Origin: Spartobacteria bacterium
Lineage (GTDB): Bacteria > Verrucomicrobiota > Verrucomicrobiia > Chthoniobacterales > Chthoniobacteraceae
Assembly (NCBI GenBank): GCA_021324825.1
Contig: JAJPII010000010.1
Span: 62,001-126,000 of the forward strand
Length of the DNA stretch: 64,000 nucleotides
Direction: 5' to 3'
Part shown: one piece after another, positions 1 to 11,313 of the stretch
Numbering within the stretch: the first letter of the stretch is position 1
How the letters are laid out: each line of letters starts with the position of its first letter
Made by a program: the position numbers and the translations under genes
Notes under the pieces: model-generated
Database searches by the model: none
What the model saw: the letters and a program-made list of their open reading frames with translations, nothing else
What the model was told of the DNA's origin: nothing

Positions 1-2128
1 TATCGGACGCAACCGCGTACGGCGAGAGAAGCAGATACCCATTGTTCTCGTCGCTGTTTGGGATCGCCGCGTTCTGGTCGATGTAAAGCGACGTGATGGT
101 GTAAGACGCCGAGGTGTCCACCGATACGCCGAGATACACCACGCCCGTTCCGCTGACCGGCAGGATGTATTGCGGATCATCGCCCACGGTCATGCCGCCC
201 GGCCAAGCGTTCACGCCGCCGCCCAGCGCCGCGCCCTGCGGGCTGATCGTGCCGAACACCACTCGCACCTTCGGGCCGCCGGCATCCGTCGCGTCCAGCA
301 CCTGGAAGGGAACCGGCCCCGCCGCCGAAGGCGCGGGAAGAGGCGGGGTGTTGCCGGTGGGCGTGCGGCTTGCGCCCGTGACGTTCGCCCGGTTCGTGGG
401 CGCGCTCGTTTTCCGTTCTCCGCCGTTGCCTCTGGCCGAGGGCTTGCGACGGCGCGCGCCGCGCAACAGCTCGACCAAATCCCGCGGCGAGAGATGCGAG
501 GCCGGGCCGAAGCCGATCTCCGTGCGCCCGGCGTCCACATCCTCGGTCACGGTCTGCACGGGCGCGTTCATCCCGGTCCATTCGGAGCGCCCGCCCGTGA
601 GATTGATCGCGTTTCCAAGCCCGATGGCCCCGCCGACCTCCGCCTCCTCGGATGTGACGCTCCCTTCATAGTATAAAATGCTGACGGCCGCATACAACAT
701 GGCCGCGACGCCCGTGGGGACCGCTTCGCCCACGTTGTAGCCGTTGAGGCAGCGGTACGTCTGCGACACGGCGTCCGTGGCCGTGTAATTCCAGATCAGC
801 GGCAGCGCGTTGGATGCGCCGAACAGCGCGGCCACGGCGGGGTCGGGCGTATTTTGCGGCGTGTACGTCGCCCATGCGTACGCGGTGGCGGGCGCCGCCT
901 TCACCTGCATCCAATCGCAGAGCGCTCCCGAGACAAGCTCGCGGGTCACTTCGCTGATGTCGCCCGGCGCGTCCGGAGGCGCCGGCGTGGAGTCGGGCGC
1001 CGTTTCCGCCGCCGAGTTGGGGTCATCGCTATTATTGCCGGCGTCCGCCGCATCCGCGGCGTCCAGGTCGACGGCATGCGTGTTTGCGACAATCGAAATA
1101 TCCCCCACGGGAATTGTCGCCATCGAACCGTCGGCTTTCTGGTACTGGCGCATCCACGGTTTCCTGGATCTCCACCAACTGAGGCAGCCAGTCGGGTTCC
1201 CCGCGCCGTCCTCCGGATTATCATCGCCGCCGTCGTCTTCCGAATTGGAGCTTCCCGGCACGGGTCTCGTAACGACGGGCTGATGCTGGTAGCTCGTGGC
1301 CGGCCCGCTCAACTCTATGGTCGCGCAGAGCGCTCCCACCTCCAGCCCGGTGGCGCCGTCGGGCTGGTAATCCTGCACGAGCGTGGTGTACGCGTCCGTA
1401 TCCACCGTCACCGTCTGCTCATAGTTGATGCAGACGCTCGGGCACACGAGGTCCTGGCGCGGCGTTATCGCAAGTCCCGTCCACGGGCTTTGCAGCGGCA
1501 CGTTCACCGCGCCCAGCGCCGACGCGCGACAAATGTTCAGCCGCGGCGCGGCCTGGCTGTAGTCCCACCAACCGATGGCGTCGGGCGTCCAGCGCAACAC
1601 CGCCTTTATAGCCTCCGCGCAGGTTATGTTCACCCGCTCGTTGGCCGGCGGGCAGACCGTGGAGACGTTGATGTCGCCGATGGCGATCGGGACGCCGCAT
1701 TTCTCGACGGCCCAGTTCAGGATCTCCGTTATCTGGTCATTGATGGAAATCGGGTTGCCGGAAATATCCTGCCCAAGTATGAGCCGCGTCCTGGGCGTCG
1801 AGACGATGGAATACACGGGCGGGCTGCCGCTCCCGGTCATCACGTTCCAGCTTTGGTGAAACACCAGTTTCTCCAGGTACCACCACGGCCCGCTGATCTT
1901 ACAGGCTTGCGATTCCGCCGCGCCCGATCCCCGCGCCGGACTTTTCGTCACGACGCCAGCAAACCACGGAGAGCCATCCCGCTCTATCGAACACGCGCCG
2001 CCGATGGAGAGGATCGGATCGGCGTCAAAATTGAGCCCGGTCTCGAAAGTGACGGCGTCCGCCGCCAGGGAACGGAGCGTCCGCCTCAGCTTATAGACCG
2101 GCCGCCCGTCTATCGTCCACACGCTCAC
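1..2128 (-). CDS. Large phage tail-hub/baseplate-like protein (partial, C-terminus beyond left edge)
   Basis: The frame is open without a stop from a GTG at 2128 to the window edge, giving 709 visible codons. The GTG overlaps the TGA of the preceding small gene (GTGA), which supports the start and coupled translation. The first 280 or so residues are beta-rich with Trp/Cys-containing stretches (for example ITEILNWAVEKCGVPIAIGD), as in central tail-hub proteins. Around residues 290-315 there is a strongly acidic Asp/Glu/Gly linker, followed by a second region and a basic Pro/Ala-rich stretch near residues 560-610. The visible C-terminal part is beta-rich again. It is the largest gene of the virion module. 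The hub assignment is inferred from size, position and general character; no catalytic motif was recognised. It could instead be a fibre-bearing tail protein. Confidence 0.7.
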   Translation of the reverse strand, partial: MSVWTIDGRPVYKLRRTLRSLAADAVTFETGLNFDADPILSIGGACSIERDGSPWFAGVVTKSPARGSGAAESQACKISGPWWYLEKLVFHQSWNVMTGSGSPPVYSIVSTPRTRLILGQDISGNPISINDQITEILNWAVEKCGVPIAIGDINVSTVCPPANERVNITCAEAIKAVLRWTPDAIGWWDYSQAAPRLNICRASALGAVNVPLQSPWTGLAITPRQDLVCPSVCINYEQTVTVDTDAYTTLVQDYQPDGATGLEVGALCATIELSGPATSYQHQPVVTRPVPGSSNSEDDGGDDNPEDGAGNPTGCLSWWRSRKPWMRQYQKADGSMATIPVGDISIVANTHAVDLDAADAADAGNNSDDPNSAAETAPDSTPAPPDAPGDISEVTRELVSGALCDWMQVKAAPATAYAWATYTPQNTPDPAVAALFGASNALPLIWNYTATDAVSQTYRCLNGYNVGEAVPTGVAAMLYAAVSILYYEGSVTSEEAEVGGAIGLGNAINLTGGRSEWTGMNAPVQTVTEDVDAGRTEIGFGPASHLSPRDLVELLRGARRRKPSARGNGGERKTSAPTNRANVTGASRTPTGNTPPLPAPSAAGPVPFQVLDATDAGGPKVRVVFGTISPQGAALGGGVNAWPGGMTVGDDPQYILPVSGTGVVYLGVSVDTSASYTITSLYIDQNAAIPNSDENNGYLLLSPYAVASD

Positions 2129-2346
2129 GGGCTGCGATGCTCCCTCGCCCACGCTTCCAGCCGCGCGATGTCGGACGCCGCCTTCGCCAGTTGCGCGTTA
2201 TGCCGGTCCGCCGTCGCGGCGTTGGCCTCCGCGATTTCGATGAGCCGCGCCAGGAGATCACTCGTGCCCGAGTCCGCGGGCGGGCTTCGCAACGCCTCCG
2301 CCGCATCGTTCAGCCGGCCCCGCTCCGCCTCGTCTTCCTCGTTCAT
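2125..2346 (-). CDS. Small helical phage protein
   Basis: A 73-residue protein that is almost entirely predicted helix, rich in Ala, Glu and Arg, with heptad-like hydrophobic spacing in its second half (LIEIAEANAATADRH). Its ATG overlaps the stop of the upstream gene (ATGA at 2343-2346) and its TGA overlaps the GTG of the large hub-like gene. It is therefore embedded in a translationally coupled chain, the best evidence that it is real. The function is unknown; a small coiled-coil assembly factor or tail chaperone would fit the position. Confidence 0.65.
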   Translation of the reverse strand: MNEEDEAERGRLNDAAEALRSPPADSGTSDLLARLIEIAEANAATADRHNAQLAKAASDIARLEAWAREHRSP

Positions 2347-2894
2347 GAGATCGCGCCCACCGCCTCGACCGTGGAGGCCGCGTTTACGGCCGCCAGTTTG
2401 GCAAACAGCGCGGCCTTCGCGGCATAGATGGCCTGTCCGTAGGCGACGATCAGCGCGCGCACGTCCGTCACGCTCGGCTGATGAACGATTCCCGCCGCAT
2501 CCACGATTGTTTGCTGGCTCGCCTCGAACCCCGCCTGGGCCGAATCGGGAAGCGCCTCCTGCGCCTCGCGCAACAACACCAGCAAATGCGCGAACTGCGC
2601 CTGGTCATTATCCGACGCGGGCAACGTCACCCCCGAGACAGTCACCCCCGCCCCAAGCGCAGCGGCATAAGCGGCGTTGAGCGCAGCGGCCTTGGCCGCG
2701 CGCGCCTGTGACAGTTGCGCCGCCGTGTCCGCAGCCGTGAGTTGATCGGCGGTGGGCTGTGCGACGGGATTGCCTTGCGAGTCCTTCAGGGACCATTTCG
2801 CGATGGCCTGAACTCCCTTGACGCTGGTCACCACGAAATCCTCGCCGGGTTGTGCGCCAGGGAAAAGCTGTTGGATTGCTGCTGCTATATTCAT
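2343..2894 (-). CDS. Phage tail-associated protein, DUF4376/XkdW-like
   Basis: A 183-residue protein. Residues 1-45 form a short N-terminal segment ending in a KDSQGN turn. The rest is Ala-rich helix with a central GVTVSGVTLPASDNDQAQF segment, which resembles the DUF4376/XkdW type of domain found next to tail fibres. Both ends are tied to neighbours by ATGA overlaps: its ATG sits in the stop of the appendage gene and its own stop overlaps the small helical gene. A tail-fibre accessory or assembly role is inferred from this placement. The domain match is by eye only. Confidence 0.6.
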   Translation of the reverse strand: MNIAAAIQQLFPGAQPGEDFVVTSVKGVQAIAKWSLKDSQGNPVAQPTADQLTAADTAAQLSQARAAKAAALNAAYAAALGAGVTVSGVTLPASDNDQAQFAHLLVLLREAQEALPDSAQAGFEASQQTIVDAAGIVHQPSVTDVRALIVAYGQAIYAAKAALFAKLAAVNAASTVEAVGAIS

Positions 2895-3823
2895 GCGATT
2901 TGAGTGATTGTCAGGCAGTTATAAGCGCCGTGATACACCGACCCGCTGCCGCCGGCGGTATAATACATGGCGCGGAATTGAAGAACCTTGGAGCCGCCGG
3001 TCTGGAACTGGAAATTGAACGTGTCTATGAATGTATCCGTGCAATTCTCCCGCTGGGCCTGCATTATCGTGGCGCCTTCCGTGGTTTCCGCGGCGTAGGG
3101 AGACGCCCTGAACGGCGTCGCCCCCAGCCCCGCAACGTCGCCATCCATCGCGAAAAACCAGCCGATCATGTATTTGCCGGCGGGCAGTGTCAGCAGCCCC
3201 GCACCGTTATCCCACGGCGTTCCGCCGAAATCATTTTGGACGACCGTGTCGTAAAACAACTGCATGTCGATATTGGGAGCGGCGGGTTGCGCCGACGAAT
3301 TTTGCAGGATGAGCGTTTTGGCTGTCGCCGCGTTCTTCAGCGCGTAACGCGCGTCGCTCTGGCCAGTGGTGAAGTAAGGCGCGGCGCCGCCGCCCTGCGC
3401 GCCGTCCTCGACGACAGCCAGGATGGCTCCGCCGGCGGTGTAGATTTTCGCGGGATCGTCGGTCGTCACCACGCTAAGCACCAGCCAGTACGTTCCGGCG
3501 GGAATGGACGTGTCCTCATTCGTCAATGCGATGAGGGCGTGTTGCCGGGCGCCGGAATCCCAGGTCGCCTGCGTCGTGGTGTCGTCGAACGTCGAGACGG
3601 TCTTGCTGACCAGCGGCGCGCCGATCTTGTTCGCCAGTTCCTTTATCTCCAGGGTCAGGCTCTGCACGTTCGCCACGCTCTGGATGCCGCCCTGGCCGAG
3701 GCCAATCTGGAACACCACGTCCGTGCCGCGCCAGATGGAAGGCGCGGCGGAGGTCGCCAGGTCGATCAACTGCTCCTGCGTGAATCCTCCGAATAGTCGT
3801 ATGGCTGGTTCGCTTATAGTCAT
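2891..3823 (-). CDS. Phage appendage/receptor-binding-like protein
   Basis: A 310-residue protein with a modular tail-appendage layout. Residues 1-120 resemble an upper-baseplate (BppU-type) N-domain, including the stretch IWRGTDVVFQIGLGQGG. Next come a Gly-rich linker and the segment QSDARYALKNA, a motif common in tail-fibre stems. Residues 180-310 are a beta-rich C-terminal domain (TLPAGKYMIGWFFAMDGD through a Gly/Tyr-rich end) compatible with a C1q/TNF-like receptor-binding head. It lies between a small tail protein and the DUF4376-like gene. What it would bind cannot be told from sequence. Confidence 0.65.
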   Translation of the reverse strand: MTISEPAIRLFGGFTQEQLIDLATSAAPSIWRGTDVVFQIGLGQGGIQSVANVQSLTLEIKELANKIGAPLVSKTVSTFDDTTTQATWDSGARQHALIALTNEDTSIPAGTYWLVLSVVTTDDPAKIYTAGGAILAVVEDGAQGGGAAPYFTTGQSDARYALKNAATAKTLILQNSSAQPAAPNIDMQLFYDTVVQNDFGGTPWDNGAGLLTLPAGKYMIGWFFAMDGDVAGLGATPFRASPYAAETTEGATIMQAQRENCTDTFIDTFNFQFQTGGSKVLQFRAMYYTAGGSGSVYHGAYNCLTITQIA

Positions 3824-3826
3824 AAA

Positions 3827-4237
3827 TTAGCTTGGCGTTGTTGTCATGAGTCCTCCGACGAGGGTATAACTATGCACGGTGGTCAGTCCTATCTGCGGCG
3901 TCATATCCTGGGACTGGATGACGCCGGCCGTGAGGTAACGAAGCACCTTCTGCCCGTTGCTTTTCAGCGCGATGAACGTCACCACGCCGGAATCGGGCAG
4001 ATCGCTCTCGTGCATCAGCAGGAATACATCCGCCGCGTCCTGGGTGGGAAAGTTGCGAATGACGGAGAAGCTGCAAGTAGTCAGCTTGTTGGCGCGGTTG
4101 ATGGGCGACGCTTGCTCCGAACGGAGCGGTTCGACGACCTGGATTTTCCGGCGCACGGAAAAACGCAGGCCGGTAAGCCCGAGTCCGCCCGAAGGCGTGC
4201 CGTCCACCAGTTTGTAGCCTCCTATGTTTACGAGCAT
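3827..4237 (-). CDS. Small phage tail structural protein
   Basis: A 136-residue protein without recognisable catalytic motifs, predicted mainly beta-strand. It starts inside the last codons of the tube-like gene (10-bp overlap) and ends 3 bp before the appendage gene. Size and position directly after a tube-like protein suggest a tail or baseplate connector. No signal peptide or membrane segment is visible. I cannot name a family. Confidence 0.55.
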   Translation of the reverse strand: MLVNIGGYKLVDGTPSGGLGLTGLRFSVRRKIQVVEPLRSEQASPINRANKLTTCSFSVIRNFPTQDAADVFLLMHESDLPDSGVVTFIALKSNGQKVLRYLTAGVIQSQDMTPQIGLTTVHSYTLVGGLMTTTPS

Positions 4238-5151
4238 GTGAGAGTAAAGAGTTCATTGGCCGCGCCTGCGGTCCACGTCCGGCGCTGAACGAATGCTATC
4301 TCCCCCTGGCGCAAGCGGGCGGTCGAATAGTGCAGGAGACTGTCCTTCGGCCCGACGTTCTTCAACGTGGCGTTGAGCGTTCCTCCCGTTATGACCAGGT
4401 CGCGCCCCGCCGCCGCCAGCGAGCCGCCTATGGGAATCGCGTTCGGCCCCTGGAGATTCATCAAGCCGTCGATCTGCGTCTCGGTCAGGTTCGCGGGCTT
4501 GAATTTCGCCGCGACGGTCATCGACTGGAGGATGATGTTCACGACGCCGAAGCTGTCGACGCCCGCGTTCCAGAGTTTCAGCGGATTGGATAGCACGAAG
4601 CCGTCTATCGACAACATCGTGTCGTACGGCGCGCCGCCCCAGGCCGCGGTGTAGAGGTCGCTGATGTTCCTGCTCTCGTCGAAACTGGCGTCGGCGAAGG
4701 CGCTCGCGGCCATCGTGCGAAAATAGGCGGGGTCGGCCGGCCCCTTGGCGGGATCGCCCAGACACGTCCACGTCATTTCCCCGAAGAGCGCGTCGGCCCC
4801 GGCCTTGAGCGTGATGTCGGGCGTCCGCGTAAGCGCGGCGTTCGGGTAAGTTATCTGCTCGCCCGAAAAGGGGATGATGACCAGCGGCAGCTTGTTAGTG
4901 GAGTCAAAGAGCGGCTGTCCGATTTTTGCAACGCCGTAAGGCCAGTATTTGGTCATGTCGTCGAGTTGCGAAGCCGGCGTTCCGCTCACCTCGGCCATCT
5001 GCGACTTCAAGCGCTCGTCGATCTCCGCGCCGTTGACCTCCGCCTTGAATGTCTCGCGTTTTACGGGATTGCCGAGATCGCCTTTGAAGTAATACGAACG
5101 GCCGTTCCAGATGACGATGGCCGGGCCGGTAATGAGGGATGGCATATTCAT
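4228..5151 (-). CDS. Probable phage tail tube (major tail) protein
   Basis: A 307-residue protein. The ATG at 5151 is chosen because it overlaps the TGA of the preceding gene (ATGA); the frame stays open further upstream, but that part is only the complement-frame shadow of the upstream gene. The protein is beta-rich with two halves of similar character, as in long-tailed phage tube proteins with a decorating domain. A segment near residues 200-230 (SIDGFVLSNPLKLWNAGVDS) alternates hydrophobic and polar residues. It follows a terminator-like gene, where the tube gene is expected when no sheath is present. The assignment is by position and composition. Confidence 0.55.
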   Translation of the reverse strand: MNMPSLITGPAIVIWNGRSYYFKGDLGNPVKRETFKAEVNGAEIDERLKSQMAEVSGTPASQLDDMTKYWPYGVAKIGQPLFDSTNKLPLVIIPFSGEQITYPNAALTRTPDITLKAGADALFGEMTWTCLGDPAKGPADPAYFRTMAASAFADASFDESRNISDLYTAAWGGAPYDTMLSIDGFVLSNPLKLWNAGVDSFGVVNIILQSMTVAAKFKPANLTETQIDGLMNLQGPNAIPIGGSLAAAGRDLVITGGTLNATLKNVGPKDSLLHYSTARLRQGEIAFVQRRTWTAGAANELFTLTCS

Positions 5152-5846
5152 AGGATTGCAACTGCTGTGACGTTCGATCCGGAAAAGCCCGCGAGATAGG
5201 CCGCGGCGCGCACTTTGCAGGGGCCGGATACGGTGAAGGATGCGCTGTAAGACTCCGCCGACGGAGAGGGATAGCCGCCATCCAGCGAGTAACGGATGGA
5301 CGCGCCCGCCGTGGCGCAGGCGAGGGATATTTGCGAGCCGGAAACGCTGATGGAAACAGGCGCGACGCGCGCTTGCGGCGGCAAGGCGAAGCGGCGCGAG
5401 AAGCGGCAGTCGTAGGTGATCCTGCCCGCAGCGGGCGCCGCCGGTTTGAGAGCCTCCTGCCCCGCCGTGATGGCGACGTTCTCGATAACGAACTGGTGCA
5501 GCGCCCCGATGACGGCCAGCGCCACGTCTTCCGCGCTCCTCCCCGTGCCGGACGGCCCCATGTTTATCGCGGGGTTCTCGATGACCCGGACGATGATCGC
5601 GGCGTCGAACACCGGCCCCGGCAGATTCGGCTCCGGGACTTCCGCGGAGGGCATGCGCACCGTGCAGGTGACGCCGCACTTGCCGCCCGTGAGCGCCTGG
5701 CCGGAGAGCGCGTCCTCCAGCCGGGTTTGCAACAACACCGCCTCGGAGGCGGAGCGCGGGCGCTCCACGAACACCGCGATGTCGCTGAATGAACTGCCCA
5801 GCCGCGCGGCGCAGTCCAGTTGGAATTGTTCCAGTTCGCTGCTCAT
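5148..5846 (-). CDS. Phage tail-terminator-like protein fused to a CHB_HEX_C-type beta domain
   Basis: A 232-residue protein. Residues 1-160 look like a head-tail joining or tail-terminator protein (compare Mu gp37 position), with a helical start and a beta core. Residues about 165-232 look like the C-terminal domain of chitobiases/hexosaminidases (CHB_HEX_C), with the signature ASIRYSLDGGYPSPSA followed by strands and AAAYLAGFSGS. Such domains are non-catalytic beta modules, and here it may decorate the tail. Overlaps of 4 bp link it to the gp36-like gene upstream and the tube-like gene downstream. The fusion is unusual for a terminator protein. Confidence 0.6.
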   Translation of the reverse strand: MSSELEQFQLDCAARLGSSFSDIAVFVERPRSASEAVLLQTRLEDALSGQALTGGKCGVTCTVRMPSAEVPEPNLPGPVFDAAIIVRVIENPAINMGPSGTGRSAEDVALAVIGALHQFVIENVAITAGQEALKPAAPAAGRITYDCRFSRRFALPPQARVAPVSISVSGSQISLACATAGASIRYSLDGGYPSPSAESYSASFTVSGPCKVRAAAYLAGFSGSNVTAVAIL

Positions 5847-6292
5847 AGCCCGCTTAGCTTGTTGCGAGTGAGGAGGCGCTTGCCCGTGCTGGCGACTTCA
5901 ACGGCGTTGTCGGCTTGCATCTCCGCCGCGCCCGCGGGCGCGTCGGGCGTTTCAAAGCGTATTTTTTCGTCGTTGATCCGGTTTAAATAGCCGCGGTCGG
6001 CGTCAGCCTGCCCCTTCTCATAGGGACTCATCTCCATCTCGATGTAGTCTTTCAAACGCAGCGTTACCATGCGGATGGCGAGGCCCTTCAGGCTGTTCGG
6101 AATCTTTGTTGCATCCTGGTCGAGCCGGTTGCCGCTCGATACGCAGGCGCGCAACGTGGCGGTCACGTCGGCTACCATCTCCGGCACGGGATCGGCTTCG
6201 CCCCGCGCGGCGGCAAGCGATTGCACGGAGGCGAAGATCGCGGAGTTCTTCCCGGTCTTCACCAGGTCTTCGGTTACGGTTGTCCAGTTCAT
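5843..6292 (-). CDS. Mu gp36-like head completion protein (DUF1320-like)
   Basis: A 149-residue, largely helical protein following the major capsid gene by 45 bp. The position matches Mu gp36 (DUF1320). The segment LAIRMVTLRLKDYIEMEMSP and the Asp/Arg-rich stretch after it resemble that family's C-terminal half. Family members form part of the head-tail connector. Its stop overlaps the ATG of the terminator-like gene. The match is by position and pattern, without a search. Confidence 0.6.
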   Translation of the reverse strand: MNWTTVTEDLVKTGKNSAIFASVQSLAAARGEADPVPEMVADVTATLRACVSSGNRLDQDATKIPNSLKGLAIRMVTLRLKDYIEMEMSPYEKGQADADRGYLNRINDEKIRFETPDAPAGAAEMQADNAVEVASTGKRLLTRNKLSGL

Positions 6293-6337
6293 GGCGGGAG
6301 GGGAGGCGCGAGAATACCCCGCGCCTCCCGTGAATGC

Positions 6338-7330
6338 CTAGTTGATGTTCAGACGGAACGTGCCGACGGTGGCCACGGCGACGATGTTGGAATACAACTC
6401 GACCGTGACATCCACGAGCTTCGCGCTGACTTGCTGCACATAGACGCGGAACCTGCCGCCGCCTTCCGCGGGCGTGATGAACCGCTTCAGGTTGCTTGGG
6501 TCCTCCAGCCCCGCGCCCTCCTCGCCGTAGAAGCCGACGACCGAGTCGGGCACGACCTTGACCTTGCTGGAGACGGTCTGCTGGTAACGCTCCTTGCTGA
6601 TCTTCACGCCGTCCAGGCCGAGGAACGCCGCGAGTTGATCGGGCGCCTGCATGGCGGATGCGAACCCGCCCGCGGTGTTCTGCGCCCGGTGCGCGAGGCC
6701 GCGCTTGTTCCAAGCCACTTCGCCGTAGAGCACCCGGTTCGGCCGGATGCCGCTGTTGTCCGTGGCGGAGATGAGCGCGGTGAGCACGTCCTGGTCCGGG
6801 TCTTTGCCAACGCTCGTGTCCCACGTCAACGCCGTGCCGGCCCCGGTGAGGGCGGTGAGCGCTCCCACCGCCCGGCGCAACTCGTTGCGAAGCAGCCGGC
6901 GCATGATGCGGGCCGTCGCGAGTTGCTGGGCGCGGTCGAGGTCGGGATACTGGTCGAGATCGAGCCGGATGGTCAGCCCCTTGTTGATGGTCTTGGCCTG
7001 GGCGTCTTCGCCGCGGTATTCGATCCGCTTGAAGTCCGCGTCGATGGCGCGCGTGTCGTCGACTTCCGAGTAGAACTCCTCCGCGTTCTTGTATTTCTTG
7101 AACTCGAAGAGCCTGCCCGGTGCGTCCACCGGCGGCGCGATGAAGTCGAGCGTGGCCTGGATGTTGTTCGGATCCCGCCAGCCGACCAGGTAAGTCGTCA
7201 GCGGCTCCGAATAGTAGGTTTCCGCGAAACGGGATTCGTTCGCGAGGTAGATTTCTCCGGGAACCAGGCTGCCGCCATTATCGCGCGGCAGCGAAGCTCC
7301 GGGAACGGTGAATTTGTCGAGTGTCTTCAT
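6338..7330 (-). CDS. Phage major capsid protein
   Basis: A 330-residue protein directly after the protease/scaffold and decoration genes, where the HK97-fold capsid protein of Mu-like and similar phages lies. It has a disordered N-terminal arm, a helical spine-like segment around residues 125-155 (RAQQLATARIMRRLLRNELR), and a beta-rich C-terminal part ending in a short strand. The sequence RPNRVLYGEVAWN around residue 200 is typical of P-domain regions of this group (DUF-type capsid proteins). The leader TATAA-ATG shows no Shine-Dalgarno match. The 20-bp gap to the decoration gene suggests coupled translation. Confidence 0.75.
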   Translation of the reverse strand: MKTLDKFTVPGASLPRDNGGSLVPGEIYLANESRFAETYYSEPLTTYLVGWRDPNNIQATLDFIAPPVDAPGRLFEFKKYKNAEEFYSEVDDTRAIDADFKRIEYRGEDAQAKTINKGLTIRLDLDQYPDLDRAQQLATARIMRRLLRNELRRAVGALTALTGAGTALTWDTSVGKDPDQDVLTALISATDNSGIRPNRVLYGEVAWNKRGLAHRAQNTAGGFASAMQAPDQLAAFLGLDGVKISKERYQQTVSSKVKVVPDSVVGFYGEEGAGLEDPSNLKRFITPAEGGGRFRVYVQQVSAKLVDVTVELYSNIVAVATVGTFRLNIN

Positions 7331-7350
7331 TTATAGGTTGGGTTGCTGAG

Positions 7351-7866
7351 TTAGCTGGGAATTGCAGTGGGCCGGGGCAGTGTCGGGTCGAATTCGATGA
7401 CGTCCCCCGCCGCGCCCGCCATGAGCGCGCGCCCGAAGACGTAGGCCGTGCCGCCGCCGTGCAAGGGCAGGGTCTTGGCGCAGCCGTTGTCGTCTGCGAC
7501 CAGGAAGTCGCCTTCGTTCACGTTCGAGTTGAGGACGACCTTCCTCGTTTCTTCCGCCGCGCCGAAAAGGGCGATGGCTACGGGAATGGTCAGATCATCC
7601 GCGCCGCCGACCGCGAGGGTCGTGTCGCGGAAGACGCCGATTGGGATATCCGCGTGGCCGGCGATATCCGCGTGCTGGTTGTCGCTCCCCATCTTCGCGA
7701 GCAGGAAATACGCGGGGATGGGGTTGTCCGGCAACCGGCTGATGAATTCCTCGTGCGTCCCCTCGGCGATGTTGGCGAAGAGGCGCTCTCCGGTTCCCGG
7801 CTTCCCGGGCCGCCGGCGCAGAATGAACGCGGCGAGAAGAGCGGTTGCTAGTATTATGGCAAGCAT
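7351..7866 (-). CDS. Capsid decoration/cement-like protein with an N-terminal membrane helix
   Basis: A 171-residue protein. Residues 1-17 are a clear hydrophobic helix (MLAIILATALLAAF) followed by Arg-rich IRRRP, a membrane-anchor signature. The remainder resembles DUF2190-type capsid cement proteins: a small beta fold with VNEGDFLVADDNGCAKTL near residues 115-135. The start is well supported by an AAGGAG Shine-Dalgarno 6 bp upstream of the ATG. The hydrophobic leader is therefore probably translated and not an annotation artefact. The gene sits between scaffold and capsid genes. Decoration proteins normally lack such an anchor; the protein may be host-membrane-tethered or processed. Confidence 0.65.
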   Translation of the reverse strand: MLAIILATALLAAFILRRRPGKPGTGERLFANIAEGTHEEFISRLPDNPIPAYFLLAKMGSDNQHADIAGHADIPIGVFRDTTLAVGGADDLTIPVAIALFGAAEETRKVVLNSNVNEGDFLVADDNGCAKTLPLHGGGTAYVFGRALMAGAAGDVIEFDPTLPRPTAIPS

Positions 7867-7893
7867 GTTTTTCTCCTTGGTGTTGCGCCGCGG

Positions 7894-8403
7894 CTAAGCC
7901 TTGGCGGGTTGTTTCATGTTCGCGAAGAGTTCCGGCCTGTCCTTGCGGACCCGCGCGAAGGCGGTGTCGTAGTCTTCACGGTTCTGGTCCATGCGCGCGT
8001 TCACCAGAGTCAACACCGCGGTCGCGGCGTCGCTGGATTCCTTGCGCTGTCCCAAATTCGCTGTGTGGGCCGCGCCGGTTTTAAAGACGGGCGGCTTGCT
8101 GGCCAGCTCGGCGGCGCGCGCGGCGAACTCGTCTCCCGCGTTGCAAAGCTCGGCAAGCGTCTTTTCCTTTTCCGCGAGCGTGACGCGGCCCTGCGAGATG
8201 GCGTTGCTTACCAGCAACTCCACGCGGGCTTTCCGCTCCTCCGCGAACGCGGTTTCCACAGCGGCGCGGGCGTTTTTTTCGTTCTCAAGTTCCGGCTCGC
8301 CGAGCCGCTTCATCACTTCGGCGAGTTTCTCCTTCACCTGTTCTTCGGTTGCGTCGTCGGCCAGGCCGAGCAGTTTTGTTAGCCACGGGGGCAGTGTTTT
8401 CAT
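7894..8403 (-). CDS. Nested in-frame scaffold protein start (Mu gpZ-like)
   Basis: Within the protease gene an in-frame ATG at 8403 (MKTLPPWLTKLLGLADD) is preceded by AAGGA with a 4-bp spacer. That would yield a 169-residue protein containing only the coiled-coil scaffold region. Mu makes its scaffold gpZ from an internal start of gene I in the same way. The internal start and ribosome site are seen directly; that they are used is inferred. Confidence 0.6.
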   Translation of the reverse strand: MKTLPPWLTKLLGLADDATEEQVKEKLAEVMKRLGEPELENEKNARAAVETAFAEERKARVELLVSNAISQGRVTLAEKEKTLAELCNAGDEFAARAAELASKPPVFKTGAAHTANLGQRKESSDAATAVLTLVNARMDQNREDYDTAFARVRKDRPELFANMKQPAKA

Positions 8404-8925
8404 GGTGTCCTTTGTGGAGGCGGCCGTGTCAGCCGCCTGTTCGTTGGTTAACGGCATGACGCCGATGTTGGGTTCGTTGGTGAGGCCGACGGATTTCAAA
8501 CGCATCGGCCTGTAGGCTCCGCTCCTGCCGGGAATGGGCTCCGCGCTCCAGGTGGGAGAGATATACTTGTATTCCTCGTTCGCGACGAGATCGCGGCCCC
8601 GCGCGTTCCACGCCGCGCGCAACCGGAGTGCGCCGGGCGCGGCCTCTATTTCGCGTATCCACGCCTTGGCGGATTTATCCTTGTAGGTTTGCCCGTGCTC
8701 GGGGTGATCGGGATGGCCTACATACACGGGCAGCCCCACAAAGCGTCTGTTTTGTTTCTGCTCGCGGAAATGCGCGACGATCGCGTCCGCGGATTCGCGG
8801 TCGAGCACTTGCATGCCCGCTTTGTGGTCGTGATTTCCGAACGGGATTTCAATCCAGTCCGGCGGCGTTTTCGAGCCGTCGACCTGGTTGCTTAGTTCGA
8901 TTGCTTTTCCGATGAGGTCGATCAT
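7894..8925 (-). CDS. Mu gpI-like prohead protease with C-terminal scaffold region
   Basis: A 343-residue protein of the Mu-like prophage I family. The N-terminal protease half has family features: IPFGNHDHKAGMQVLDRESA, FVGLPVYVGHPDHP (about residues 60-75), and the segment EYKYISPTWSAEPIPG. The C-terminal half (from about residue 175) is a charged coiled-coil region typical of the scaffold. The ATG at 8925 overlaps the TGA of the portal gene. It cleaves capsid proteins during head assembly in known relatives. A diverged REP-like repeat lies exactly in the linker between the two halves. A nested scaffold start is annotated separately. Confidence 0.85.
   Translation of the reverse strand: MIDLIGKAIELSNQVDGSKTPPDWIEIPFGNHDHKAGMQVLDRESADAIVAHFREQKQNRRFVGLPVYVGHPDHPEHGQTYKDKSAKAWIREIEAAPGALRLRAAWNARGRDLVANEEYKYISPTWSAEPIPGRSGAYRPMRLKSVGLTNEPNIGVMPLTNEQAADTAASTKDTMKTLPPWLTKLLGLADDATEEQVKEKLAEVMKRLGEPELENEKNARAAVETAFAEERKARVELLVSNAISQGRVTLAEKEKTLAELCNAGDEFAARAAELASKPPVFKTGAAHTANLGQRKESSDAATAVLTLVNARMDQNREDYDTAFARVRKDRPELFANMKQPAKA
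8411..8440. repeat. REP-like half-palindrome inside the phage protease gene
   Basis: These 30 bp match the left arm of the intergenic palindrome at 24505-24534 at 25 of 30 positions. They encode the Ala/Thr-rich linker between the protease and scaffold halves and end at the Shine-Dalgarno of the nested start. Confidence 0.5.
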
Positions 8926-10142
8926 TTTAAGGGTGCGGTTAGCAGTTTGTCGCCCGGGACGGGCGCGGAGTATCCGAAGCGGTTCAGCGCGTCCGCCACG
9001 GAGACGGGCAGGCCGAACGGAATGAGAGCGGCCAGGACCTGGAGATCGAAGCTTCTGTCCTCCCGTTCCCTGGTTTTGACCCTGACACGCGCCAGCGGCT
9101 TGACGCCCGCGCCGAAGGTGAATGCGATGACCCGCCTGTCGATCTGGATGTTGAGCGTCTCGCTCAACAGCGCGGCGCGGTCCTCGTCCAGCGCGTCGGT
9201 CTCGTCGGCCTGCAAGCTCGCGCCCTGGCCCTGGCCCGCGCCGCGGTGGCTTTGCGTGCCGAGGTCGGCGCCGCGCCAGAGGATGGTGATCGCCCTGTCC
9301 ATCCTGTCGATGATCGGTTCGAACGGGGTCGATCCCTGCCCGCTCTCGGCCTTGACGAGTTCGATGCTGTCCGTGGCGTTGCATACCGCCGCGAAGTCGT
9401 TCGCGAATGTCGCGACCGCCGTCTTCATCGCGTTCCACTGGTCGCTGCCTTGCGAAGCCGTGGTTCTGCCCAGTATGCCGGGAAAGCCGAATTTCTCCGA
9501 GTAGTTCAGCCAATCCTTCAGCGGAAGGTGCTTGAACATATAGGCGACCGAGCAGGCTTCGTCGATGCCGTCGCCGACGGTCACCAGCCATTCGTCCGGG
9601 TTCATGGGAACGCCCATGTAGTCGAAGTCCTGCGTCAGGAACCGGAGGCGGCCCGTGAGGTTTTCGAAGAACCAGCAGGGCGCGGCGCGGAACTCGGCGG
9701 TGAGGCCGCTCTCGCCGGGCTGCCAGCAGATTTCGTGGACGCTGTATTTGCGCCCGATTGCATGGGCCATCGTCCTGACAAGCAGAGAGAAGCCGCCCAC
9801 GCGGTTTTCGTCATACGCGTCGGTGACGGTCAGGTTGTTGTAGAAGTATTCGAGCGCCTCCTTGTGCCGCCGCGCCTCGGCGCCTTCGCCGGCCACGACT
9901 TCGAAGCCGTAACGCGAAAGCGCGTTTTTCGCTTTCGCGGAGACGCTGGCGAGCCGGTCGTCGCGCCGCTCCATCGCCTCCCAGGTCCGCATGATGGGCG
10001 AGAGATAGCCGCGCGCGAACTGGTCAAGCTGAACGGCCAGCAATTCCGGGGTCAGGACGCGGATCGGGTTGAACCGCTGCCGCAGCGAAAGTTCTACACG
10101 CCCGGGAGTTATCTTAGCGCTGTTGGAAGTAGCTGGTAACAT
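8922..10142 (-). CDS. Phage portal protein, Mu gp29-like (DUF935)
   Basis: A 406-residue portal protein, the entry vertex for DNA packaging. Recognisable DUF935 features include the RFNPIRVLTPELLA start region, the stretch GRKYSVHEICWQP (about residues 130-142), FGFPGILGRTTA (about 220-230), and the RAITILWRGADLGTQSHRG segment with the Gly/Gln-rich loop typical of the family. The gene is the first of the module; its ATG follows a 7-bp-stem hairpin and lies 28 bp past the aroB stop. Terminase would be expected upstream but is missing. Confidence 0.85.
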   Translation of the reverse strand: MLPATSNSAKITPGRVELSLRQRFNPIRVLTPELLAVQLDQFARGYLSPIMRTWEAMERRDDRLASVSAKAKNALSRYGFEVVAGEGAEARRHKEALEYFYNNLTVTDAYDENRVGGFSLLVRTMAHAIGRKYSVHEICWQPGESGLTAEFRAAPCWFFENLTGRLRFLTQDFDYMGVPMNPDEWLVTVGDGIDEACSVAYMFKHLPLKDWLNYSEKFGFPGILGRTTASQGSDQWNAMKTAVATFANDFAAVCNATDSIELVKAESGQGSTPFEPIIDRMDRAITILWRGADLGTQSHRGAGQGQGASLQADETDALDEDRAALLSETLNIQIDRRVIAFTFGAGVKPLARVRVKTREREDRSFDLQVLAALIPFGLPVSVADALNRFGYSAPVPGDKLLTAPLK

Positions 10143-10162
10143 GTGCGAGCTAATCCTCGCAC
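10143..10162. repeat. Inverted repeat at the aroB/portal junction
   Basis: A perfect 7-bp inverted repeat (GTGCGAG and CTCGCAC, 6-nt loop) touches the portal start codon. On the minus strand it includes the only GAGG in reach of that ATG, so folding could hide the ribosome site. There is no T-run, so a rho-independent terminator is not indicated. It could also be a trace of the insertion junction. Confidence 0.4.
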
Positions 10163-10170
10163 GACTGTTA

Positions 10171-11313
10171 CTAGGAGCCTAAGCCCCCATTGCCTCCATT
10201 GGCTCCATTGCGGAAAATCGATAAAACTGCCTCCGAAATGACGCTCGTCTCCACGTTTCGGACGGATTTCCAGGCGCCAATCCCCGTTGGCAACACGAAA
10301 AGATTGCCGCCTTCGCGGAATTTCTTGTCGTGCTTCATGCTTTCGATCAGACGCTCGAAGGAAATTCCCTCGGCGGACCGGGGAAGACCCGCCCGCCGGA
10401 TCAACGAACGGATTCGACCCGCGGAGGATTGATCCAGCGCCCCCAGGCTGAGCGCTATGTGATTCGCCGCGAGCATGCCGATGGAAATCGCTTCCCCGTG
10501 CGTCATCCGGAAATCGGCGGCCATCTCGAGCGCGTGGCCGATGGTGTGGCCGTAGTTCAGCACGTTGCGCTTGCCCTTGTCGTCCAGTTCGTCTTCTTCC
10601 ACCACGCGGGCTTTGATGCGATAGCAGTCGCTCACGACGCGGCGGAGAACGGGCGCATCCAGGGCCAGGAGTTTTTCGATGTTGGTTTCGAGGTATTCAA
10701 AAAGGGCGGCGTCGCACACCGCGCCGTATTTGATGACTTCGGCGACGCCGGAACGGATGTCGCGGGGCGGGAGCGTCTCGAGCAAGGCGAGATCGGCGAA
10801 TACCAGCTTCGGCTGATAGATCCGCCCGATGATGTTCTTGACGGTTTTTGAATTTACGCCGGTCTTGCCGCCGACTCCGCAATCGACGCACCCCAGCAAT
10901 GTCGTCGGGACCTGGACATACGGCGCGCCGCCTCGCATGAACGTCGCGGCGACAAAGCCGCCCATGTCGCCCACCACTCCGCCCCCGAGGTTCACGATGG
11001 CGGGCGCGGAACTGGATTGCGGAAAGTCGCGGACGACGGCTTCGCAGCAATTCGAGTATTCGGCGAGGTTCTTGTTTTCCTCGCCGTCGGGGATGTCGTG
11101 GCGGCAAATCCTTTGGAAACCGGCGGCGGCGAGGGATTTCTCCAGCGGCTCGTAATAGAGGGCGCCGATGCGCGGGCTGGTGAAGACCATGACGTTCCGG
11201 GCGACGACGCGGGCCGCCAGGAGTTCGCCGAAACGGTCGAGCCAGCCGTGGCCTACCAGGATGTCGTGCGAACGGTTCTCGAGATGGACCGTGATGGTCT
11301 CATGGTCGATCAT
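10171..11313 (-). CDS. aroB: 3-dehydroquinate synthase
   Basis: Converts DAHP to 3-dehydroquinate in the shikimate pathway (cytosol, NAD and Zn/Co dependent). It has 380 residues. Visible motifs are the NAD-binding GGGVVGD (110-116), the substrate segment KTGVN (150-154), AEVIKYG (about 191-197), the metal ligand region NYGHTIGHA (253-261) and THGEA (271-275). The enzyme body ends around residue 367; the last residues (a Gly/Asn-rich tail) come from a short CCATTG-type repeat and are not part of the family. It is the last housekeeping gene of the run from rlmI-like to aroB, and clpX ends 11 bp upstream. The portal gene follows 28 bp downstream. Confidence 0.95.
   Translation of the reverse strand: MIDHETITVHLENRSHDILVGHGWLDRFGELLAARVVARNVMVFTSPRIGALYYEPLEKSLAAAGFQRICRHDIPDGEENKNLAEYSNCCEAVVRDFPQSSSAPAIVNLGGGVVGDMGGFVAATFMRGGAPYVQVPTTLLGCVDCGVGGKTGVNSKTVKNIIGRIYQPKLVFADLALLETLPPRDIRSGVAEVIKYGAVCDAALFEYLETNIEKLLALDAPVLRRVVSDCYRIKARVVEEDELDDKGKRNVLNYGHTIGHALEMAADFRMTHGEAISIGMLAANHIALSLGALDQSSAGRIRSLIRRAGLPRSAEGISFERLIESMKHDKKFREGGNLFVLPTGIGAWKSVRNVETSVISEAVLSIFRNGANGGNGGLGS

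Follow-up and report, generated by a model that had tools for sequence, protein, structure and literature searches.

The virion module behind aroB

The window is a stretch of 64,000 nucleotides, bases 62001-126000 of contig C28 (135,195 bases), from a spartobacterial genome of 47 contigs and 3.3 Mb. With the 62 kb to the left of the window read as well, the virion module at its left end is seen to be a closed 10.9-kb island of 13 genes on the minus strand, C28:61268-72142 or window -732 to 10142, arranged from the portal gene at the aroB end to the tail hub. The host gene aroB (10171..11313, minus strand) stops 28 bp before the portal start and in the same orientation, as the earlier note had reported, with clpX, clpP and tig also upstream; at the far end only 6 bp separate the module from a host ABC sugar-transporter gene set. 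The module does not end at the window edge; it continues to window -732, and both of its ends are known. That note would have given up its reading had the flanks held an ordinary complete prophage, or had the assembly been broken at 10142-10171; both flanks consist of host genes, and contig C28 has no break there.

The head genes come first, all of them, like the rest of the module, on the minus strand. The Mu-type portal (8922..10142, 406 aa; Portal_Mu PF06074, E 1e-57; phrog_113) is 41-51% identical to the portals of phages and of modules at fixed chromosomal sites. It is followed by a Mu-I-like head maturation protease/scaffold (7894..8925, 343 aa; Mu-like_Pro PF10123, E 2e-21; phrog_328), a decoration or cement-like head protein (7351..7866, 171 aa; phrog_673, E 1e-7), whose homologue in family f61 matches Phage_cement_2, and the major capsid protein (6338..7330, 330 aa; phrog_1005 major head, E 1e-9), which is 59% identical to that of viral contig L014. 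These matches bear out the four identities given in the earlier note. A capsid pattern scan of the viral contigs returned nothing, though profiles do detect homologues. The product of the next gene, g149 (5843..6292, 149 aa), is probably a head-tail connector, judging by its position and by homology in relatives, and g232 (5148..5846, 232 aa, with a CHB_HEX_C_1 domain) is, from its position, a putative tail completion or terminator protein. The two genes overlap by 4 bp at the place where most phages have MuF and MuG, and the overlap closes this slot with no ragged deletion.

Among the tail genes, the 307-aa product (4228..5151) has a predicted structure (AlphaFold pLDDT 85) with a T5 pb6/p140-like tail-tube fold; Foldseek matches it to 7qg9_G at E 1e-9 and also to T5 tail tube chains. 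The 136-aa protein t136 (3827..4237, pLDDT 90) is predicted to have a tail-tube or distal-ring fold, and its best Foldseek matches are phage neck and tube chains, including 6toa_G and 6tba_50 of RcGTA. There follow a fibre-like protein (2891..3823, 310 aa counted from the upstream ATG) and an XkdW/DUF4376 tail-fibre-related protein (2343..2894, 183 aa; PF09636, E 8e-12; PF14301). A 73-aa ORF (2125..2346) lies just before the hub and so would occupy the slot of the phage tape measure; its counterparts in f61, L009 and L155/L158 are ORFs of 45-52 aa. The tail hub-like protein of 749 aa (1..2128 and on to window -121) has homologues that take the hub position in phages and fixed-site modules, and a 202-aa gene (window -732 to -124, its ends read on L005) completes the module.

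The description of the virion genes as intact and tightly coupled stands: all 13 frames are open, no broken frame was seen, 98.6% of the module is coding, intergenic gaps range from -10 to 57 bp and 4-bp overlaps are frequent. Only weak attachment-type repeats were found at the module ends, and a promoter and terminator scan gave the same counts as shuffled sequence. Codon usage gives no discrimination of age, since a control intact prophage is as host-like as the module. Gene maps come from a simple custom gene caller; some starts and frames in family f39 are approximate, and assembly seems to have broken a few MAG frames (G072). The left end of the contig, C28:1-22000 (L002 and the start of L003), is a mobile region some 40 kb away from the module, with relaxase-like and integrase-like genes of atypical codon usage.

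The terminase locus on a second contig

Where is the packaging motor? A terminase query taken from an intact-looking prophage in the same family found one homologue in the genome of the window, on contig C43. In this locus, C43:10824-17186, TerL and TerS are accompanied by two small genes, a glycosyltransferase-like gene, a further one where lysis genes typically lie, an S24 repressor and small, divergently oriented HTH genes. Host genes lie on both sides, the TerL frame is open and the terminase domains are present. The earlier note's statement that the module is terminase-less thus holds for the aroB locus but not for the genome. Of the other genes that it proposed to seek to the left, neither tape measure nor transposase was found by profile search of contigs C28 and C43, and MuF and MuG are missing there too.

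The operon on C43 stops at the TerL-portal boundary, where relatives run on into the portal gene. Viral contigs have a TerL with 54-63% identity to that of C43, and the gene right after it is a portal with 41-51% identity to that of the window; the same late genes come next. The most natural reading is that the C43 and aroB loci are the two halves of a single phage type, with the cut falling between TerL and portal. Could this cut have arisen in the computer, one contiguous prophage having been mis-joined to host sequence in a 47-contig assembly? The split does fall exactly at the boundary that is continuous in phages. Such an artefact would nevertheless require the assembly to have gone wrong twice, both times precisely at a gene end, and the same kind of split is found in family f61, including genome G521, which is assembled in 3 contigs. 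We regard this explanation as very unlikely.

Published accounts give a TerS without a detectable N-terminal DNA-binding domain as a trait of gene transfer agents, or GTAs (PMC11841831). The C43 TerS aligns over its full length with phage TerS, and so keeps a phage-like N-terminus, while in the f61 TerS the match to Mu gp27 begins no earlier than profile position 40. The C43 protein thus lacks the GTA trait, although the comparison is a weak one, as Pfam finds an HTH in neither TerS.

Mobile and chromosomal relatives

The relatives of the module are of two kinds, mobile phages and chromosomal modules without mobility genes. The mobile kind, viral contigs and prophages, has regions with transposase or repressor genes, has MuF and MuG and, in those sequences that include the tail genes, a tape measure of 535-657 aa before the hub; on an integrase-bearing contig the tape measure reaches 1342 aa. 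The chromosomal kind lies among ordinary chromosomal genes with no mobility genes nearby, and is without MuF, MuG and a long tape measure, several of its members having the ORF of 45-52 aa in that slot. Three species of genus g94, in family f39, have the module at one site, between fabI-side genes and gatCAB; genus g108 has it ahead of miaA, as seen in two genomes and also in the viral contigs L149 and L151; and in L164 it lies behind an exonuclease III-like gene. Contig C79 of G071 also is without MuF, MuG and long tape measure, and is too short to be assigned to either kind. We note that IMG/VR contigs L148-L151, L155-L158, L164 and L168, where their flanks are visible, are chromosomal fixed-site modules beside genes such as miaA and exonuclease III. 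Some of these chromosomal modules stand in IMG/VR as viral contigs, and so may be miscounted as viruses.

Family f61 offers the fullest record of inheritance. Of its 19 genomes 18 have the module; they belong to three genera, and the sites are conserved within genera: in genus g159 seven genomes have it behind galE and a sugar pyrophosphorylase gene and ten have it before purH, and each of the other two genera has one site of its own. The one genome without a hub match, G540, is a one-contig assembly, so that a real loss is possible. The f61 terminase operon, seen in four g159 genomes, is apart from the module in all four: two have it at another place in the genome, and in the other two it is about 3 kb off and in opposite orientation. 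An HU gene (PF00216) follows TerL in this operon in the four genomes (L197:11485-11760, rc(L198):10894-11166); a role in packaging is possible.

The dN/dS comparison across homologous clusters that the earlier note called for gave low ratios. Where synonymous change is unsaturated, they are 0.03-0.37 for f61 module genes, with one exception of 0.62 at a gene with a doubtful start, and mostly 0.04-0.36 for f39 modules. In G301 and G334 the dS of the module is similar to that of neighbouring gatB. Such ratios mean that purifying selection acts on genes which stay at fixed places. The groups with the best support are the same in trees built from the module and in trees of the host genes beside it, but a shuffle test of this agreement is only suggestive (121 and 125 of 2000). 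Modules of this build are passed on vertically in other families of the class, and the f61 module points to an inherited, GTA-like particle set, whose function is predicted from its genes.

The earlier note offered two origins for the module, the broken end of a prophage or a domesticated particle cluster. For the related modules domestication is strongly supported, by their presence in 18 of 19 f61 genomes, their conserved sites and the purifying selection on them; the module in the window shares their architecture, and for it domestication is a candidate reading. In its own family the window's genome is the only carrier of the module, which is absent from the 39 other genomes compared, all of them of other genera, and an inversion test by aroB synteny showed that the neighbours of aroB vary across the family. 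One of the 39, G022, has an intact-looking prophage of the same phage type.

Head trees place the modules in three separate groups, f61 with L009, f39, and the window, so that two or three origins are likely. A single clade of window, f61 and L009 is not recovered in the tree, yet it is not rejected (AU p 0.43). Both the head genes and the TerL of the window set group with intact phages, though not beside the same phage.

Isolated virion genes were seen as well. In G338, contig C39 has a single hub-like gene (L181, 16601-18475) without other virion genes. Four loci of rumen-type Verrucomicrobia MAGs (L010, L011, L012 and L013) have only a Mu-type portal and a short protease of about 230 aa, beside a TAT-signal dehydrogenase gene; with dN/dS of 0.06-0.23 the pair looks kept, with neither capsid nor terminase nearby.

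Discussion

What, then, are the two loci in the window's genome? By definition a GTA has particle proteins derived from phage, endogenised genes that are often in several loci, vertical inheritance, random packaging of host DNA, short of the agent's entire gene set, and delivery to other cells (PMC9662315). Those with established genes fall into three groups (PMC9662315). GTAs resemble prophage remnants, often occupy several loci, and take experiments to tell apart from remnants; a review asks how common distant, unrelated GTAs are and how they can be told from such remnants (PMC11841831). In the present case the portal, protease, capsid, tail-tube folds and TerL are those of tailed phages, and the genes sit in two host-flanked loci, with no transposase on C28 or C43. 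An intact Mu-like prophage would be contiguous and have a transposase; here the late region is divided between two contigs, and both lack the MuF, MuG and tape-measure genes that the compared phages have.

We find a GTA-like particle set in two loci somewhat more probable than a prophage broken only recently, inferring function from the genes; on this view the module would supply the structural genes of a set whose ancestor was a Mu-like phage of Opitutia. Both loci are open and host-flanked, and taken together they follow the gene order of the relatives. The locus on C43 would keep the repressor, the lysis-type genes, TerS and TerL, and that behind aroB the portal, protease, capsid, connector, tail tube and hub. 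Their products may build a small, short-tailed particle that TerS and TerL would fill with host DNA, since there is no element genome that can replicate. The S24 repressor might gate or limit the packaging locus, and the structural locus may be transcribed by read-through from aroB, given the 28-bp spacing. The set would be kept for DNA transfer or for another use of the particle.

Several observations support the GTA-like reading. The C43 operon ends at the very boundary across which phages are continuous; TerL and all of the module frames are open, and the MuF/MuG slot is closed by an overlap of 4 bp; the lack of MuF, MuG and a long tape measure is the mark of the chromosomal, mobility-free modules; and the f61 module, with its near-universal presence, conserved sites and separate terminase, shows, like that of f39, low dN/dS. 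The reading is weakened by the absence of the module from the other genomes of its family, by the grouping of head genes and TerL with intact phages, by the N-terminal part that the C43 TerS keeps and the f61 TerS does not, and by the repressor and early HTH genes still on C43.

These last points bring in the main competitor, a cryptic prophage. A Mu-like prophage may have lost its transposition region, and a recent rearrangement may have cut TerL from portal, the genes being functionless and intact only because the event is young. The intact phages nearest to its head genes and TerL, the intact-looking prophage of the same type in the same family, the remaining early genes and the solitary occurrence of the module all agree with this. 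Against it, both cuts and the loss of MuF and MuG fall on gene borders, not one module frame is broken, and the architecture equals that of modules long kept in other families. We consider the cryptic prophage a substantial possibility, if short of an even chance. A GTA-like set that is young in its domestication seems to us the somewhat better description of the window, the alternative being a recently broken prophage whose frames are still intact.

Would such a particle need to transfer DNA at all? It might be empty or hold other cargo, with the terminase a leftover, and structural genes apart from terminase, here and in f61, would fit this, as would the portal-protease pairs kept without capsid or terminase in other Verrucomicrobia. 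An intact TerL with terminase domains is kept here, however, TerL is under selection in f61, and no cargo gene is recognised in the modules. Of the explanations considered, this one seems to us the least credible.

Compared with RcGTA, BaGTA and VSH-1/BhGTA, which are classed as viriforms (PMC9662315), the modules are alike in having phage-derived head, portal, terminase and tail genes in several loci with no adjacent mobility genes, in vertical inheritance for those of f61 and f39, and, for f61, in a TerS without the N-terminal DNA-binding part. They differ in the Mu-type portal and protease, the phage ancestor, the Verrucomicrobia host and the lack of a long tape measure. Packaging and delivery are putative for the modules, as is inheritance for the window set. 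The Mu-like transposable phages of Opitutia (viral contigs G213-G219 and the G022 prophage) share with the window set the order TerS, TerL, portal, protease, decoration, capsid, connector, tail tube, hub, at 41-63% protein identity, but they are contiguous and carry transposase or early genes, MuF, MuG and the tape measure of 535-657 aa. The chromosomal modules of f61, f39 and L009 are, like that of the window, host-flanked and free of mobility genes, MuF, MuG and long tape measure, and f61 likewise has its terminase at a separate place; they differ in that they do not group with the window in head or TerL trees and their sites are common to several species. 'Ca. Marcellius', another Verrucomicrobia genome, has two Mu-like phage proteins and a large terminase, with no integration or propagation genes reported; it was published as having a degraded prophage (PMC6920513), and we liken it to our case by description, not by sequence.

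In the open-access literature searched we found no paper on a GTA in Verrucomicrobia. The set points to a so far undescribed GTA-like particle in this phylum, with similar sets inherited by nearly every sequenced member of f61. A module kept in 18 of the 19 genomes of one family would be a new, independent GTA lineage with its own phage ancestor. It is conceivable, though we would stop short of calling it probable, that repeated domestication of Mu-like phages in Opitutia has given rise to GTAs of minimal tail, without long tape measure, MuF or MuG and in some cases with a separate packaging-motor locus; the window would be an independent and probably younger case, caught at the step from prophage to inherited particle. 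The mobile cousins of the modules permit a before-and-after comparison of domestication. G521, a genome with a fixed-site module, also has, at about 17-35 kb of contig C1 (L196), a Mu-like prophage that looks intact and includes transposase, terminase, MuF and MuG.
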